Source: Nostoc sp. HK-01 (lineage in GTDB: Bacteria > Cyanobacteriota > Cyanobacteriia > Cyanobacteriales > Nostocaceae). Taken from it: a stretch of DNA of 64,000 nt. The DNA lies in contig AP018318.1 in NCBI GenBank assembly GCA_003990705.1, positions 2,607,501 through 2,671,500 on the forward strand, given 5' to 3'. Shown here one piece after another: positions 51,744 to 62,969 of the stretch (positions are counted from its first letter, which is position 1; each line of letters begins with the position of its first letter). Position numbers and translations under genes: made by a program. The notes beneath the pieces were generated by a model, which saw only the letters and a program-made list of their open reading frames with translations, searched no databases and was not told where the DNA came from.

Positions 51744-54491
51744 TTGGAGTGGATAGAACGCAGTACCGAAGCAGAATCGCCTGGGGTTCTCAAGGCTGGG
51801 AACCCTCAGAAAAGTTTGGCTTATTGGCAGGGACGTAAAACAGAATTTGCCCAAATACAGCAATGGTTAACTGATAACAATACCTTTTTAATTGGCATAG
51901 AAGGCATCGGTGGCGCAGGTAAATCGATGCTGGCGGCGAAAATTTATGAAGAAATTGCAGGTTTTCCCAAGCGATTTTGGGCTGATGTGAGTAATGGGGC
52001 AAGTTTTAGCGATTTAGCCCGTCAAGTACTCACTGAATTTGGCTTTCCGGTTCCAGAAGAAGAAGCAAGGTTAGTAGAAGCGCTGGTGAGGTGTTTACGC
52101 AGTGGTGAATTTTTACTGATTATTGACAACCTGGAGAGTTTATTACAACCTAATAGACAATGGGGAAGTCTATTCTACGGAGAATTTTTTAACGCTTGGG
52201 TGGAATTTGGCGGTAATAGTAAGGTCATAGTTACCACTAGAGAAAGACCAGAATTAAAAGGCTTTGAGTGGCTACCTTTGAAAGGTTTGCTAGTAGATGA
52301 AGGGGTAGCACTGTTAACAGCATTAGGGATTCGGGGAGATTTAGCCGAGTTTGTTGAATTAGTAGATGGACATCCCCTACTGTTGCGCTTGGTAGCAGAT
52401 TTATTAAAAGAAGAATATCCCCAAGACCCAGATTTAAGCAGATTAGCAGATTTAGGTTTAGGGAACTTACGGCGGTTGTTAACAGATCCTCAAGTGGTAG
52501 GTGTGCATCGCCGGGAAAATGTGGGGATGGTGTTGGTATTGGATGCCAGTTTTAATAGATTGAATGAGTTACAAAAAGCTTTATTACTTAATATTAGTGT
52601 TTATCGTGGGGCTGTAGATAGTGCTGCGGCTGTGGCGGTATTGGCGGGAAGTTCAGCAGCAGAGATTGAGGGAGAATTGAGGAATATTGTTAAACGTTCT
52701 TTGTTAATAGAAAAACTTAATGGTAAGCGACGGTTTGAGTTTCAGCCTGTGGTTTTAGAGTATGTGCGGTATAAAGCTGGTAATCAGACTCAGGCGCATC
52801 AGCAAGCCATAGATTATTATCGTTCAATTGCTAAACAACCGCCCTGGACAAAAAAAGATGATGTTAAAGAATATTTAGAAATCTTTTATCACTATTATCA
52901 GTTGCAAGATTATAACTCTGCCTTTGATGCGCTTTGGATTTGCGATGATTTTTTAACTTTGCGGGGTCATTATGCAGACCAAGTAGAATTATACGGGCAG
53001 TTGGTAAGTAAATGGCAAGAAATTGGCGATCGCAAAAATTGGAATTATCGGGCTTCTCTTACTTCGTTGGGCAATGCTTACCACTCCCTGGGACAGTACC
53101 AACGGGCGATAGAGTTTTACCAGCAGTCTTTAGATATCTCTCTGGAAATCGGCGATCGCAACGGAGAAAGTTATTCTTTAAACAATTTAGGCAGTGCTTA
53201 CAAACACCTGGGAGAGTACCAACGGGCAATTGACTTGCACCAGCAGTCTTTGGAAATCTTTAGGGAGATGGGTGATCGCAATGGCGAAGGTATATCCTTG
53301 GACAATTTGGGCAGTGCTTACAAACACCTGGGACAGTACCAACGGGCAATTGAGTTCCACCAGCAGTCAATGGATATCTTTAGGGAGATAGGCAATCGCA
53401 ACGGCGAAGCTAATTCCTTAATTGGTTTGGGTGATGTTTACGACTCCTTGGGACAGTACCAACAGGTGATTGAGTTCTTCCAGCAGTCAATTGATATCAA
53501 AAAGGAGATCGGCGATCGCAACGGCGAAGGTTCTTGCTTAATTGGTTTGGGCAATGCTTACCATTCTCTGGGACATTACCAACGGGCGATAGAGTTCTAC
53601 CAGCAGTCAATGGAAATCAAAAAGGAGATCGGCGATCGCAACGGCGAAGGTTCTTGCTTAATCGGTTTGGGCAATGCTTACCGTTATCTGAGACAGTATC
53701 AACGGGCGATAGAGTTCTACCAGCAGTCAATGGAAATCAAAAAGGAGATCGGCGATCGCAACGGTGAAGGTCTTTCCTTAATCGGTTTGGGCAATGCTTA
53801 CCGTTATCTGAGACAGTATCAACGGGCGATAGAGTTCTACCAGCAGTCAATGGAAATCTTTAGGGAGATCGGCCATCCCAACGGAGAAGCTGTTTCTTTG
53901 GGAAATTTAGGCAATGCTTACGACTTTCTGGGACAGTACCCACTGGCGATAGAGTTCTACCAGCAGGCTTTGAATATCAAAAAAGATATCAGCGATCGCA
54001 ACGGCGAAGGTCTTTCCTTATTCAACTTGGGCAATGCTTACCGTTCCCTGGGACAGTACCAACGGGCGATAGAGTTTTACCAGCAGTCTTTAGATATTGC
54101 TAGGGATATAGGCAATCGCAATGGCGAAGGTGCTTCCTTACTCAACTTGGGCGATGCTTACCGTTCCCTGGGACAGTACCCACAGGCGATTGAGTTCTAC
54201 CAGCAGTCTTTGGAAATATCAAGGGAGATAGGTGATATTCGAGGGGAAGCAAACACCTGGTTTAATTTAGGTTTGGCTTTAGACAACGTCAACCGGGAAT
54301 CAGACGCACTGGGTGCTTATCGCAATGCGCGTGAACTATATCAGACAATGGGACTTGATGCTTATGTGCAACGTTACAATGATGAAATTGAGCGTATTTC
54401 GCAACCAAAAGCGCCTGTAGTTTCTCGGCGTGGGTTTTGGGGGTGGTGGCGGCGGTTGTGGCGTTGGGTTCGCGGTTGGTTTCGGCGGTAA
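51744..54491 (+). CDS. NB-ARC (STAND) ATPase with TPR array and Arg/Trp-rich tail
   Basis: 915 aa counted from TTG 51744; the frame is open back to 51693. The P-loop ATPase (about 25-330) has Walker A GIEGIGGAGKS near 52-60, Walker B FLLIIDNLES near 123-132 and sensor KVIVTTRERPE, as in NB-ARC/STAND switches. A winged-helix-like region follows. Residues about 435-835 are ten 40-residue tetratricopeptide repeats (LGNAYRSLGQYQRAIEFYQQ) plus one degenerate, encoded by near-identical 120-bp units. The C-terminus is GFWGWWRRLWRWVRGWFRR, strongly cationic and aromatic, suggesting membrane binding. STAND-TPR proteins act as signal-triggered scaffolds, sometimes in defence or programmed death; the specific role is unknown. 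It may be translated by frameshift from the preceding gene. Two decayed copies of its 3' end lie downstream. Confidence 0.85.
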   Translation: MEWIERSTEAESPGVLKAGNPQKSLAYWQGRKTEFAQIQQWLTDNNTFLIGIEGIGGAGKSMLAAKIYEEIAGFPKRFWADVSNGASFSDLARQVLTEFGFPVPEEEARLVEALVRCLRSGEFLLIIDNLESLLQPNRQWGSLFYGEFFNAWVEFGGNSKVIVTTRERPELKGFEWLPLKGLLVDEGVALLTALGIRGDLAEFVELVDGHPLLLRLVADLLKEEYPQDPDLSRLADLGLGNLRRLLTDPQVVGVHRRENVGMVLVLDASFNRLNELQKALLLNISVYRGAVDSAAAVAVLAGSSAAEIEGELRNIVKRSLLIEKLNGKRRFEFQPVVLEYVRYKAGNQTQAHQQAIDYYRSIAKQPPWTKKDDVKEYLEIFYHYYQLQDYNSAFDALWICDDFLTLRGHYADQVELYGQLVSKWQEIGDRKNWNYRASLTSLGNAYHSLGQYQRAIEFYQQSLDISLEIGDRNGESYSLNNLGSAYKHLGEYQRAIDLHQQSLEIFREMGDRNGEGISLDNLGSAYKHLGQYQRAIEFHQQSMDIFREIGNRNGEANSLIGLGDVYDSLGQYQQVIEFFQQSIDIKKEIGDRNGEGSCLIGLGNAYHSLGHYQRAIEFYQQSMEIKKEIGDRNGEGSCLIGLGNAYRYLRQYQRAIEFYQQSMEIKKEIGDRNGEGLSLIGLGNAYRYLRQYQRAIEFYQQSMEIFREIGHPNGEAVSLGNLGNAYDFLGQYPLAIEFYQQALNIKKDISDRNGEGLSLFNLGNAYRSLGQYQRAIEFYQQSLDIARDIGNRNGEGASLLNLGDAYRSLGQYPQAIEFYQQSLEISREIGDIRGEANTWFNLGLALDNVNRESDALGAYRNARELYQTMGLDAYVQRYNDEIERISQPKAPVVSRRGFWGWWRRLWRWVRGWFRR
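53047..54246 (+). repeat. Ten 120-bp tandem coding repeats (TPR units)
   Basis: Within the NB-ARC/TPR gene, ten consecutive 120-bp units each encode one TPR. Most carry GGCGATCGCAACGG (a HIP1 site) and GAGTTCTACCAGCAGTC at the same place. Units six and seven (about 53641-53880) are almost identical, pointing to recent expansion. Confidence 0.88.
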
Positions 54492-54783: not shown

Positions 54784-55203
54784 GTGAGAAAATCTTTAAT
54801 TGATACGGATATTTTATCAGAAATTCGCAAATTAAAAAATCCTAAAATAAATGCTAAAGCCATTGGTTACATAGGTATATGGCAACAGTACACAATTTCT
54901 GTGATTACTGTTTCCGAAATTATCAAGGGATGGAGGAGAATAAATCGAAATGACCGCATTCAAGAGTTTTTAACAGATTTGTCTCAACTAGAAATATTGC
55001 CGTTAGACCAAAGCTGTGCAGAACTTTCAGGTTTGATTCAAGCAGATTTAGAAACAGCAGGACAACCAATCGGACTAGCAGATGTCTTAATAGCTGCTAC
55101 AGCGATCGCAAATAATTTAGTTTTAGTCACAGGTAATATTAAACATTATCAAAAAATCCAAGCATTAGGATATCCTTTAGTAATTGATAATTGGCGAGAA
55201 TGA
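54784..55203 (+). CDS. PIN-domain toxin (VapC-like)
   Basis: A 139-aa PIN-domain ribonuclease. Acidic active-site residues are in SLIDTDILSEI (Asp7, Asp9), VITVSEIIKGW (Glu), IGLADVLIAATAIA (Asp) and VTGNIKHY (usually Asp, here Asn at the equivalent of TxD/TxN). VapC toxins cut tRNA or rRNA when released from the antitoxin. Start is GTG 54784, 8 bp after the antitoxin stop, indicating translational coupling. All usual elements are present, so it is probably active. Confidence 0.87.
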   Translation: MRKSLIDTDILSEIRKLKNPKINAKAIGYIGIWQQYTISVITVSEIIKGWRRINRNDRIQEFLTDLSQLEILPLDQSCAELSGLIQADLETAGQPIGLADVLIAATAIANNLVLVTGNIKHYQKIQALGYPLVIDNWRE

Positions 55204-55420: not shown

Positions 55421-55669
55421 ATGTTACAAAATACCTATCAACTACCATTGACATTTGAACAAATTCTTACTCTGGTCAAACAACTGTCTGATTCCGAAAA
55501 GCTTTTACTCAGCAAAGAACTAGAAAAGGAAACATTGAATAAGAAGTTAACTCAGTTACTAGAAATATTTCAAACTGATGAATTATCTTTAGAGGAAATT
55601 ACAGAGGAAGTAGAAAACGTGCGTTCTCAAATTTATGCCAGCAAACAAAGCAATCAAGATAATTATTGA
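55421..55669 (+). CDS. Antitoxin of the second PIN toxin module
   Basis: An 82-aa protein beginning LQNTYQLPLTFEQILTLVKQ and then LSDSEKLLLSKELEKE, followed by an acidic helix (DELSLEEITEEVENVRSQIY). The pattern is that of small DUF-type antitoxins paired with PIN toxins in cyanobacteria. The frame is open upstream to 55316, but that part derives from the decayed TPR-gene tail and is unlikely to be translated; ATG 55421 is chosen. It overlaps the toxin gene by 35 bp, a usual TA arrangement. Confidence 0.78.
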   Translation: MLQNTYQLPLTFEQILTLVKQLSDSEKLLLSKELEKETLNKKLTQLLEIFQTDELSLEEITEEVENVRSQIYASKQSNQDNY

Positions 55670-56054
55670 TACTAATCTTTGGATTAGCTTTCTGATTGGT
55701 AAGGGATTAAAAGAATTAAATAATCTTTTAATTGAAGAAACGATACAATTAGTGATTTCTGAGGAAATTTTAGAGGAAATTATCTTGGTAACTCAACAAC
55801 GTCCTAAGTTACAAAAATATTTTCCGCGCCATAAAGTTGATGAATTAATTCAAATTTTACGGGCTATTGGTTTATTTGTAATAATCACAACAGAAGTATC
55901 TATTTGTCGAGATCCCAAAGATAATTATCTCTTAGGATTAGCAAAAGATAGTGCTGCTAATTTTTTAGTCACTGGCGATCAAGATTTATTAGTAATTAAG
56001 ATATTTGAAAATACCGAAATTATTACTTACCAAGAATTTTTACTTAAATTATAA
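55635..56054 (+). CDS. PIN-domain toxin, COG1569-type
   Basis: A 139-aa PIN-fold protein of the putative toxin family related to COG1569. The N-terminal IKIIIDTNLWISFLIG holds the first active-site Asp, ISEEILEEIILV the conserved Glu region, CRDPKDNYLLGLAKDS the central Asp pair, and FLVTGDQDLLVIKIF the last Asp. All catalytic acidic residues appear intact. It overlaps the antitoxin gene by 35 bp, so translation is coupled. Predicted to be an RNase; target unknown. Confidence 0.85.
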   Translation: MPANKAIKIIIDTNLWISFLIGKGLKELNNLLIEETIQLVISEEILEEIILVTQQRPKLQKYFPRHKVDELIQILRAIGLFVIITTEVSICRDPKDNYLLGLAKDSAANFLVTGDQDLLVIKIFENTEIITYQEFLLKL

Positions 56055-58523: not shown

Positions 58524-61500
58524 TCAACTATTATAAGCAATTGATGGTGTTACTACCTCTGGAACTTGTACATGATCATCGGCTGATTGATTGACACGCT
58601 CCAGCCATCTTTGGGCTTTGGAATAGTTATCTTTCTGAACTTGTTTGATGGCTTGTTTGTAGTTGAGTGTGACTCCCCAAACATCAGATGTGAAGCGTTT
58701 TTCTTGTTTCATTTTGTCAAAGAACTGCACAGCTTCTAAGTGTGATAAACCACCTTCTGTATTGGCGATCGCTAACATAACTTGATAAACATCATCGGCC
58801 ATCTTGGCATCACCACAAACATAATAGTGGCATTGAGGATGACTCAGCTTTTGCCATATTTCTTGTGGTTGCTGCTGCATCAAATCTTGTACGTAGGTTT
58901 TGGTGTTGCCTTGGCGAGAAAATGCCACGTTTAATTCTGACAGCACGCCCTGATTGTGCCATGTCTGCAATTGCTCTTGATAGAGGAAGTCATGCTGATT
59001 GCGACAACCAAAGAATAAAGCTGCATTTGCCAAAGGTTGTCCTTGTTGCCACAGGGCTTGTCGGTATTGCAAAAAGCCAATTAACGGCGAAACCCCAGTA
59101 CCTGGCCCTACCATCAACATGATTGCTTCGGGGTCGCTAGGTGGTCTAAAGGTGGAGGTACGAACGTCAATTCGTACTTTTGTGCCTGGTTCCAGTCCAG
59201 CTAGGTAGTTGGAACACAGTCCTTGACGGACTTTGCCTGCATCAGTGGTAATTTGCAATACCCCCACTGTGATTTGAATTTCTTGGGGATGCAGCAAGGG
59301 ACAGGAGGAAATTGAGTACAGACGGGGTTTCTGTCTGGGGAGTAACTCTAGTAAGGCGGCGAGGGTAATTTTGGCGGTGGGGAATTCATCGAATAAGTCA
59401 GCCACGCTCATGTAATTGTCGGTGATATTTTTGGTGAGCGCGATGCTGTCGGGATGGTCTTCACCTTGGCGGAGAATTTCTAACCAAGTTTCTAGGCGTT
59501 GTTTTTCTGTGAAGTTTGGCGTGGCGGAGTGTAAATATGCCAATAAATCATTGAATGGTTCCCGCAAAGCTAAATCTAACTCTTCATACAGCACATGACC
59601 GACGGTTGTAGGTACGGGAATTGGGGGTTTGTCTTCGGTTTCCTGACCATCGGCGGTGACGTAACCGGCACTGAAGTAGGTGTCTTGGGTGATATTGAGG
59701 CGATCGCAAATTCGCTGCACCAGGGCTGATGAATTACAAGGATACACTGCCACATGATCGCCTGTTTCATAATTCAGGTTGGTATTGGCAATATCAAAGC
59801 TGATAAATCGGGTGGAACGGCTACCAGGAATTACTTCTTGCAGCAATTCTTGATTAGCAACTACAGGAACGGCTATACCGCGATCGCCACTGTCTACTAC
59901 ACAAGAAAGGTTGAGAACTTCGGCGGCGTTTAACATTTTCACTTGCAATTGCGGCGCATGAGCCGTAGTCGCATCGGCTGCTGTGGCATCTTCACCTAAG
60001 ACACGGCTAATTAATCTCAGCCACTGTTTAAAGGTGTCGGCTTGTCCTTTGATTTCGTCAGCTTTATGTAAGGGAACAATGCAGTTTGCCCCTGAACGAG
60101 CTAAGGCTTTATCAACCGCAATTCCCGCTGCACAGAATTGTTCATATACAGTACTGCCAAGCCCCAACACAGAATAATTTAAACTCATTAGCGAACCGGG
60201 TGGTTGCTTTTTCAACCAGTACAAGAATTTTTTGCCGTTCCCTGGCATTTCTCCATTCCCAAAGGTGGAGGTGACAATTAGCAGTAGTTTCTCTGAAGCT
60301 AACAGGTCGGCGTTATACTCATCTAGTTCCATTACCTTGGGACGATAACGATTTAATTGCCGCGCCACAGTCCGGGCAAAACCTTCGGCTGTGCCAGTTT
60401 CCGAGGCATACAAAATCAAGATCCTGTCTTGCTTGTTGTCATCTTCGGAAGCAAAAGTTGTGATTTTTTCCAGGTCAATTCCATCTTCTACTGCCCAGCG
60501 ATCGGCTGCATGATGATAGGCAGGTTCTAAATAAAAGTCGCGTGTTTGATGATGCCAAACCGGACAAGCGCTACCGCCCGCTGGTGGTACCACCCAACCC
60601 CACTCAGCCGGACACTCTCTACCTGCTTTCTTTTCGCGCAAATCGTGGGCGAGGTACTGGCGCGAGGCAGATTGATGGTCTACCATTGTTACTTTCGCTT
60701 TTTGGAAGGAGTGCAGGACGGCAACATTCAGTTCTAAGGCGACGCGATCGCGCCACAAGGTCTGCTCGGAACTGGTATCTAATTGCAGTACTTTGGCGAT
60801 TTCTTCGAGTTTGTCATAACGCCCTTCTTCCATGAAATCACGCATGATTTCTGTACCCATGTACCAGCCATTAAAGGGGACGCAAGCATAAGTAATGCCA
60901 CCAATATCCATGCGGAAATTACTGATAGCAGGAATTGCATACCAGCGCAACCCTAAAGATTTGAATTCGGCAATGGTGGGATGTTCAATGTCTATTTCTA
61001 AAATTTCGTCTTGGGGGAATTCATAGAGCTTTGGCTCCATTCCCGGCACTTCAATCACTATCGGTAAAATATCGTAGGGGGTGCGGGGTGATGGTGGTTG
61101 CCAACCTAGTTTGATTACTGCTTGAGTTAAATCTAAGTTAGCGCGATCGCCCATTACACTGCCATCTGGTTGTTCGTAAGCGGCGTAACGCAGTAATTGC
61201 GGATTCCACAGGCGAGGCCCCCAACGTTCTTTCGGTTGTTTGGGACGGAATGCGGTCATGATCACTTGAATATTGCCGCCATTCGTCCCTAAACGCAAAT
61301 GTTCCACTAATTCTTTGAACATTTCATCAGGGTCGGTCACATGACGGCAATCACGCACCACCATATTATTCCACTGAATCCGACCAATACATTTGGAAGC
61401 ATTCCGCCAAGCTAACTGTGCGCCATAGGCGAGTTCTTCGTAGGTATGACTGTAAGTACCTGTGGCTTGAACTTCTGCTTGAATTTCTGCCCAACGTAGT

Positions 61501-62969
61501 TTTTGATGTTCTGGTTCCCAACCTTGTTCAGTCGCAATCACTTCGAGAAATTGCTTGGCTTTTTTTAATAACCTTTCTTCATTCAGCTTGGGCAACTTCA
61601 TCACATTGGTGACACGATTAAATAATGTCTGCCATGCCCGCCTTAATTCTGGGGTAAAATTCGGCACATACTTTTCAAATAAGACAAACATGGTGTCAGA
61701 AATGGCAGGGTATGCACAAGATGGTACTCCTACATTGCCGTGGATTTGTCCTAATAATCTCAGTTCCAGCAACAGTTCATCAGTGGTTTCACTTTTCAAG
61801 CAACGCATGAGAAAATCCAATGATTGAAACAGGTGCAAAGACAGGTAATCGATATCCGCCCTGCCAAAAATTGGCAACACAAAGGGATACTTTTCAAACA
61901 AGGTTTGATAAAATACCATCCCCATTTCTTGCTTGTTTTGACTAAATACCTGCCAAGTGTCTGTCATCTCCTGGAGTAATTCTGGTGGTAAAGCGTCTTC
62001 ATAACAACGGACTGCTTCTACCATTGGGACAATGATGTGGGTATTGAAAAACTTGTAGAGGGCAGAGTTGACACCTTTAGCTAAATCTTGGCGATCGTAT
62101 TCTTCAATGTAAGGAATCGAAGGTAACATCCACATCCACACTTGTCGCGCTTTCACCCAGTGGTGGGGACGCATCCCAATATCCGCAAACAAAGCCCCGT
62201 AATCTTCTACTGTATCGAAGTCATCGCCTTTTTCGTAAGGCACACCTGTGAGAGGTTCAGAAATGATGTTTTGGGTGTGGGGCTGGAGTTGGTGAATACA
62301 GTAATCAAATAACTCATAAAAGTAATCTGTCATACTGTCGATCGCTTCACCAAAAATATGTTCTAGTTCTGGTTCTTCTAGCAACAGCCGTTTAAAGAAC
62401 TTTTCCATTTGTAGTTCTTTCCAAGCCCGCATTTTATTCCAGACATCTTTGACGATGACTTCTTCATTGGGCGTCAGGGGTATAGCTGCGGGAATTTCTA
62501 CTTCTTTGTCGGTTGTTGGGGTTGGTTTGAGTTGAACACGCGTATGGCTTGGCTGATTGGCTAATAAGTTGACGGTGCTGCTATGTGCTTCACCAATAGT
62601 CTGGGTTATCCGTGTTTTCAGGGTTAAGTAGGGTGCTAGACTCCAGGTGGTGATGGGAAATTCTAGTTCAATTGAGTTGTGTCCATGCAAAAAATCTTGC
62701 GCCGCAAAGGTCACTGTCCCTGCATCTTGCCAAGGTTGCGTCATATCACCTTGGCGGTAACACAGTGTAATGGTAATGGCGCAGTCTTTGTAGTTAGTTA
62801 AATTTAACAGCCAGCTGGGCTGCATCCGCGAAAACAGATCTTTGGACAAAATAGATTGTCCTTGCTCTGAAAGTATCTGTACACGACATTTATACTTAAA
62901 ATCTCCTCCAGATGGAACATCGGTGGCTGAGATTTCGGTTAAATGAATCAGTTGTTGATTGTAATCCAT
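58524..62969 (-). CDS. nos: Nitric oxide synthase with tandem globin-like domains and fused reductase
   Basis: 1,481 aa. Residues 1-165: beta-rich domain of unknown type. About 170-320: degenerate globin-like domain ([18 protein letters not shown]; His269-His270). About 325-470: second globin ([15 protein letters not shown]) with probable proximal His410 in [13 protein letters not shown]. About 475-830: NOS oxygenase with haem ligand Cys527 in [13 protein letters not shown], substrate Glu707 in GWYMGTEI and pterin-site [17 protein letters not shown]. About 840-1000: flavodoxin/FMN domain ([16 protein letters not shown]). About 1040-1460: FAD/NADPH reductase ([30 protein letters not shown]). 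All landmark residues are present, so arginine to NO conversion is likely. The known cyanobacterial NOS of Synechococcus PCC 7335 also has a globin domain. There is no calmodulin-binding linker between oxygenase and FMN domains. ATG 62969. Flanked by an orphan permease and a PhzF gene. Confidence 0.94.

Follow-up and report, generated by a model that had tools for sequence, protein, structure and literature searches.

A six-domain nitric oxide synthase of the syNOS type in Nostoc sp. HK-01 and its relatives with altered globins

The closest described system to the gene reported here is syNOS, the nitric oxide synthase (NOS) of Synechococcus sp. PCC 7335, treated in two papers (PMC12922734, PMC6104048) and solved by cryo-EM in structures published in February 2026 (PMC12922734; PDB entries 9Q05, 9Q06, 9Q0X, 9Q0Y and 9Q15). 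According to PMC12922734 it consists of six domains: a C2-like domain (residues 1-134), a haem-free pseudoglobin which is eight-helical by cryo-EM (179-339), a NO-dioxygenase globin (340-473), the oxygenase domain Oxy (474-852), the flavodoxin domain Fld (863-1003) and the reductase domain FNR (1017-1468). The published products are NO and nitrate at a ratio of about 1:3, the globin being reduced within the enzyme and oxidising NO to nitrate. The paper of 2018 (PMC6104048) had expected Ca2+ independence; the later one reports that the enzyme is activated by Ca2+, that C2 binds Ca2+ with a Kd of 1.6 uM, and that in the presence of Ca2+ C2 docks to the haem pocket of the globin (PMC12922734). 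A basic patch of C2, formed by K35, K37 and R81, reportedly binds first to FNR and afterwards to the haem propionates of the globin (PMC12922734). Cyanobacterial NOS were described from several orders, including Nostocales such as Fortiea contorta and Nostoc PCC 7107, and fall into two clusters, one with the oxygenase alone and one complete with globin (PMC6104048).

Domain layout of the Nostoc gene and distribution of its relatives

We analysed a stretch of 64,000 nucleotides from Nostoc sp. HK-01, here called the window. Positions 58524-62969 of its reverse strand hold a single ORF with an ATG start, coding for 1481 amino acids. Pfam recognises NO_synthase at residues 464-825 (E 1.1e-153), Flavodoxin_1 at 852-983, FAD_binding_1 at 1033-1255, NAD_binding_1 at 1286-1394 and Globin at 353-457 (26.6 bits, cut-off 22); residues 1-352 have no Pfam match. 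A phmmer search against PDB sequences returned one continuous match of residues 7-1457 to syNOS 17-1466 (2236.9 bits). Both results bear out the first-pass annotation of this ORF as a NOS with its own reductase domains, and by homology the enzyme would be self-sufficient. The locus of syNOS itself, L139, was recognised because its ORF contains a piece of syNOS; counted from the 13th residue it has 1468 amino acids with a Cys at 539. Window NOS and syNOS are 64.8% identical over 1454 aligned positions, and the domain borders below are those of the aligned syNOS frame.

58524..62969, reverse strand: whole gene, syNOS-type nitric oxide synthase, 1481 aa (Pfam, phmmer, syNOS alignment)
62604..62969, reverse strand: C2-like N-terminal domain, residues 1-122 (syNOS alignment, 36% identity; structure of the syNOS counterpart in PMC12922734)
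62472..62603, reverse strand: linker L1, residues 123-166 (syNOS alignment, 25% identity)
61989..62471, reverse strand: pseudoglobin, residues 167-327 (syNOS alignment, 71% identity; syNOS counterpart without haem, PMC12922734)
61587..61988, reverse strand: haem globin, predicted NO dioxygenase, residues 328-461, with CD1 F368, H379 and proximal H410 (Pfam and alignment, 63%)
60453..61586, reverse strand: NOS oxygenase domain (Oxy), residues 462-839, with haem-thiolate C527, W702 and Y703 (Pfam and alignment, 79%)
60423..60452, reverse strand: linker L2, residues 840-849 (10 residues), at the position of the animal NOS calmodulin-binding segment (syNOS alignment)
60000..60422, reverse strand: FMN flavodoxin domain (Fld), residues 850-990 (Pfam and alignment, 72%)
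58677..59951, reverse strand: FAD/NADPH reductase domain (FNR), residues 1007-1431 (Pfam and alignment, 61%)
58524..58676, reverse strand: C-terminal tail, residues 1432-1481, with the stop codon (syNOS alignment, 68% identity to the syNOS tail over the first 28 residues)

The two enzymes have the six domains in the same order, the pseudoglobin, the proximal His and the missing calmodulin linker in common. They differ in the C2 domain, which is only 36% identical, in the replacement of R107 and in a tail that is about 22 residues longer in the window protein. In the alignment the haem Cys C527, the proximal His H410 and the CD1 Phe F368 are kept, as are the counterparts of syNOS W715, Y716 and I695 (W702, Y703, I682). 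Within C2 the basic patch is retained (K25, K27 and R72 for syNOS K35, K37 and R81), and so is the syNOS contact R57/E523/Q494 (R48/E511). The C2-Oxy pair R107/E568 is kept on the Oxy side (E556) and has N98 in place of R107; an R stands in this column in 21 of the 37 distinct rows with a letter there. Gene, domain order and conserved ligands are directly visible in the window. Animal NOS carry a CxxxxC zinc motif ahead of Oxy; the sole CxxxxC of the window NOS is at residue 1380, so that this motif is absent here. The absence of a calmodulin linker, noticed before from the letters alone, is confirmed: L2 has 10 residues and is too short for a calmodulin site, the mammalian segment being of about 30 residues (PMC12922734). 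Across all six segments compared with L037, dN/dS is 0.05-0.12, hence the gene is under purifying selection. A PF02898 profile search found one NOS in this genome.

The N-terminal part was further compared by sequence profiles. The profile of the pseudoglobin gave an hhalign probability of 2.5 against its own neighbour globin, and in the PDB it matched syNOS with 277 bits, nothing else being better than E 1.1 and the first globin outside syNOS appearing at E 1.4. By hhalign and PDB profile search it has no significant sequence similarity to other globins, and residues 167-327 would have the fold of the matching haem-free syNOS pseudoglobin by homology. The second globin found bacterial globins at 9e-12 (3S1I, from Methylacidiphilum infernorum, PMC6104048) and neuroglobins at 2e-9 and weaker; H379 and H410 are its only two His. 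In case of C2, syNOS was the only PDB match, the next having E 0.5. The first-pass reading of two tandem globin-like domains, the first one degenerate, agrees with syNOS, given 71% identity to the haem-free pseudoglobin and a proximal His in the second; by alignment the borders of the putative first globin move from 170-320 to 167-327. Likewise, the beta-rich domain suspected at the N-terminus corresponds by alignment to the Ca2+-binding C2-like domain. The view that syNOS has a single globin domain is out of date, its order being C2 - pseudoglobin - globin - Oxy - Fld - FNR, and the tandem is not new, as the same arrangement occurs in syNOS. The family and its structure are already in print and the window gene adds another member to them.

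With window residues 1-464 as query, matches were obtained in 32 of 386 cyanobacterial genomes. Near full-length matches occur in only five, the own genome included; the other 27 match over shorter stretches, nearly all of these in the globin region. PF02898 was found in 42 of 388 genomes drawn by order and in 19 of 388 (18 over the cut-off) drawn by class, two draws which overlap; a scan of the collection gave 19 loci. By ORF length and position of Oxy, 51 loci were typed: 12 short Oxy-only ORFs (387-490 aa), seven ORFs of 1093-1221 aa with a C-terminal Oxy (L101, L102, L104-L107, L109, from which L101, L106 and L107 were put to Pfam), three shorter ORFs with Oxy near the end (L103, L115, L124) and 29 loci of the syNOS type, whole, partial or broken. 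For comparison 46 rows were aligned, and after dropping eight copies 38 distinct syNOS-type rows remained, the window included. Left out of the rows were the broken or partial syNOS-type loci L113, L137 and L138, further L103, L115 and L124, and fragment matches to PF02898. In L137 and L138, which are syNOS-type genes, the reading frame is broken within the pseudoglobin/globin region, giving two or three separate frames. The NOS of Chroococcus FPU101 (L051, 9965-14395, same contig as L121) has one in-frame stop between Oxy and Fld, which may be a natural split, a pseudogene or a sequencing error.

No conserved operon or functional partner was found in a comparison with 26 other loci (19 of the syNOS type), several of them with little flanking sequence. 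A PhzF-like gene upstream recurs in six and a permease downstream in three of the 19 syNOS-type loci. An NtcA-type site has the form GTAN8TAC. None is present within 400 bases upstream of the window gene, and one was seen upstream in two of 19 stretches (L048, L038). Over the whole window there are 15 such sites where 10.6 are expected, and nine of 100 shuffles reached as many, which is not clearly above chance; NtcA control of this gene is thus not supported by the upstream site search. Elsewhere in the window, a 915-aa ORF with many near-identical repeats (51744-54491), which we take by eye to be TPR-like, lies beside two presumably PIN-like ORFs (54784-55203 and 55635-56054).

Predicted mechanism and its alternatives

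Reading the window enzyme by analogy with syNOS, we consider it very probable that the gene codes for a Ca2+-gated NOS coupled to a NO dioxygenase, with switch and spacer roles as in syNOS; for its activities, Ca2+ control and domain movement we infer throughout from that enzyme. The NADPH-FAD-FMN reductase module would pass electrons to the oxygenase haem, where L-arginine would be converted to citrulline and NO. The adjoining globin would oxidise part of this NO to nitrate by means of the same reductase, so the enzyme probably makes NO and burns a part of it; the earlier suggestion that the globin turns NO into nitrate agrees with the published behaviour of syNOS. The C2-like domain may be a Ca2+ switch standing in for calmodulin: without Ca2+ it would rest against Oxy/FNR, with Ca2+ it would shift to the globin and free the oxygenase. 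Where mammalian NOS has its zinc site, at the dimer interface, the pseudoglobin would serve as a structural spacer.

Several points count against this mechanism or complicate it. C2 is the least conserved domain of the window NOS, with 36% identity to syNOS, and of the published C2-Oxy contacts that of R107 with E568 is lost. The syNOS C2 is without the usual Ca2+-binding Asp residues, so that Ca2+ control is not readable from the sequence (PMC12922734). In syNOS, removal of C2 abolishes NOS activity instead of releasing it, which argues against a clean switch; the rate of globin reduction is little changed by C2 removal or by Ca2+, and the Ca2+ effect has a Km near 200 uM compared with the C2 Kd of 1.6 uM (all PMC12922734).

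An alternative would be that the globin is mainly a sensor of O2 or NO which regulates the synthase. A haem globin joined to a NOS could report gas levels, and the docking of C2 at the globin haem pocket of syNOS in the presence of Ca2+ (PMC12922734) would fit such a role. However, the syNOS globin is reduced in the enzyme and turns NO into nitrate, and the window globin retains H379, H410 and the CD1 Phe, which makes this reading unlikely. The low identity of C2 (36%) and L1 (25%) to syNOS and the loss of R107 lead to another alternative, namely that the window enzyme has through this divergence lost a part of the syNOS function, e.g. Ca2+ control. It would be in line with this that of the 122 C2 positions just 85 are present in L133 and 95 in L128 (= L049), and that L134, which lies near a contig end, is without C2. 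Yet the window enzyme keeps the basic patch K25/K27/R72 and R48, C2 has a dN/dS of 0.12 against L037, and in 35 of the 38 distinct rows C2 is covered over 115 or more of its 122 positions; we regard such a loss as quite improbable. That the domain string is an artefact of assembly or gene calling has a negligible probability: nothing was found in its favour, and it is refuted by homologues, since the same order occurs in independent genomes, named isolates included, and in the solved protein syNOS. We therefore retain the Ca2+-gated synthase with NO dioxygenase as the preferred reading. As a natural syNOS sufficiently distant from the solved one (C2 at 36%, R107 lost), the window enzyme could serve to find out on which contacts of C2 the Ca2+ gating depends.

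EF-hand and LCIB variants of the syNOS type

The interest lies mainly in the relatives. In L112, L126 and L129 the NOS ends in an LCIB/C beta-carbonic anhydrase domain (PF18599, E 1.4e-65 to 5e-67), which makes up the C-terminal ~245 residues of ORFs of 1727-1741 aa. A tblastn search with this domain over 58 loci (L034-L052, L101-L139) found it in these three only; L120, very close to L129, does not have it. In the open-licence papers searched, we found no NOS-LCIB carbonic anhydrase fusion from cyanobacteria.

A second variant concerns the globin. In L041, L042, L047, L050 and L052 the haem globin is longer by 62-63 residues, inserted after window residue 405 and just ahead of the position of the proximal His. 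The same globin break is present in L008; L125, from the contig of L008, is identical in sequence to L041. EF-hand globin NOS loci also include L119, L123, L125 and L134, some of them on the same contigs. An EF-hand pair scored above the Pfam cut-off in all four loci tested (L041, L050, L042, L052), and L134 (= L047) has the same two EF-hand loops by motif. At positions 379 and 410 all 33 distinct rows without insert have His, whereas all five with insert have Asn at the first position and Val or Asn at the second; the CD1 Phe is retained in 38 of 38. Alignment next to so long an insert is less certain than elsewhere, yet beyond it three of the EF rows have a single His, close to the C-terminal end of the globin, and the other two have none; within the insert a His occurs in two rows, and ahead of it all five have one or two, at positions other than 379. 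Of the EF rows, the four that hold C2 retain its basic patch, the first residue being K or R; the remaining row is partial. The EF-hand loops lie in the same domain to which the C2 of syNOS docks with Ca2+. Judged by analogy, these enzymes would likely release NO and have a second Ca2+ input.

We found no description of an EF-hand pair nested in a NOS globin within the open-licence papers searched, and the term EF-hand is absent from the main text of PMC12922734. The Microcoleus EF-hand NOS of PMC7400543 is of the reverse-order type and not of the EF-globin type. A search of eight genomes for a donor of the EF-hand pair gave no clear candidate, the best non-NOS matches being ORFs of 478-811 aa with 44-52% identity. 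In the window's own genome the pair has no match at threshold. That genome holds small EF-hand-pair frames (78-79 aa) at three places, two of which score alike; these are possibly CSE-like Ca2+ sensors.

G000:C1:2059776-2059976: small EF-hand-pair frame, window's genome
G000:C2:423918-424112: small EF-hand-pair frame, window's genome
G000:C3:100093-100287: small EF-hand-pair frame, window's genome

In a globin tree from which the F-helix region had been cut out, the five EF rows form one clade (100/100, in all 200 bootstrap trees), and the EF-globin looks to be of single origin. In the pseudoglobin and C2 trees the EF rows, four here because L134 is partial, were joined in none of 200 bootstrap trees. 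The Oxy-to-FNR tree as drawn splits the EF rows between its two halves, with three on one side and two, beside the EF-less L122/L131, on the other (fork 100/99); its groups table set EF against LCIB rows only, so that the '1 change' given there is no test. Between L050 and L042, the fraction of synonymous sites differing is 0.53-0.63 in C2, pseudoglobin, Oxy and Fld and 0.29-0.41 across globin and insert; between L050 and L052 it is 0.50-0.68 outside and 0.18-0.41 across globin and insert. At the protein level, L042 is 88-95% identical to L122 outside the globin and 56-62% inside, and against L119 the figures are 74-83% outside the globin, 81% up to the insert and 68% from there on. The EF-globin is found in two NOS backbones and shows the lower synonymous divergence; from these short segments we read it as apparently a recombined cassette. 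Four pairs gave a dN/dS of 0.18, 0.36, 0.37 and 0.69 for the insert and of 0.07-0.14 for Oxy; the insert looks to be kept, though less strictly than Oxy. For the segment before the insert, L042 and L052 give 1.34, a value from a short segment with few changes.

Taken together, we lean towards the view that the globin of the syNOS family is an exchangeable control cassette, which would have been changed from a NO dioxygenase into a calcium sensor in Microcoleus/Plectonema-type relatives, the Plectonema radiosum gene being one example, and moved by recombination to a second backbone. If this is true, the Microcoleus/Plectonema-type enzymes release NO unburnt to nitrate and answer to Ca2+ through EF-hands and C2, and cyanobacteria came to calcium control of NOS by several routes, of which none involves calmodulin. 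The family offers a natural experiment in which one NOS chassis is combined with a haem globin, an EF-hand globin that has lost the ligand of the haem, or an added carbonic-anhydrase domain. The NO:nitrate ratio and the Ca2+ response across these variants would show what globin and C2 are for.

Comparison with other known systems

Reverse-order NOS with EF-hands were reported for Microcoleus and Sorangium (PMC7400543) and share with the window enzyme that they are bacterial NOS with their own reductase, but domain order and reductase type are different. Among our loci, L101, L106 and L107 are such reverse-order relatives; Pfam gives an EF-hand signal, FAD/NAD reductase domains and a C-terminal Oxy, and [2Fe-2S] BFD above the cut-off in L106 and L107, with L101 just short of it (25.8 vs 26). 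They have no Pfam globin and no match to the window C2, pseudoglobin or globin.

With the animal enzymes (nNOS, eNOS, iNOS) the window NOS has the order Oxy-Fld-FNR, the haem thiolate and the substrate residues in common. It differs from them by the missing calmodulin segment, by the missing CxxxxC ahead of Oxy and by the additional C2, pseudoglobin and globin domains. In its predicted NO dioxygenase logic, a globin reduced by a flavin reductase, it resembles the flavohaemoglobin Hmp, a comparison already made for syNOS (PMC12922734). Unlike in Hmp, the reductase of the window enzyme is the diflavin NOS reductase and is located at the opposite end of the chain from the globin.
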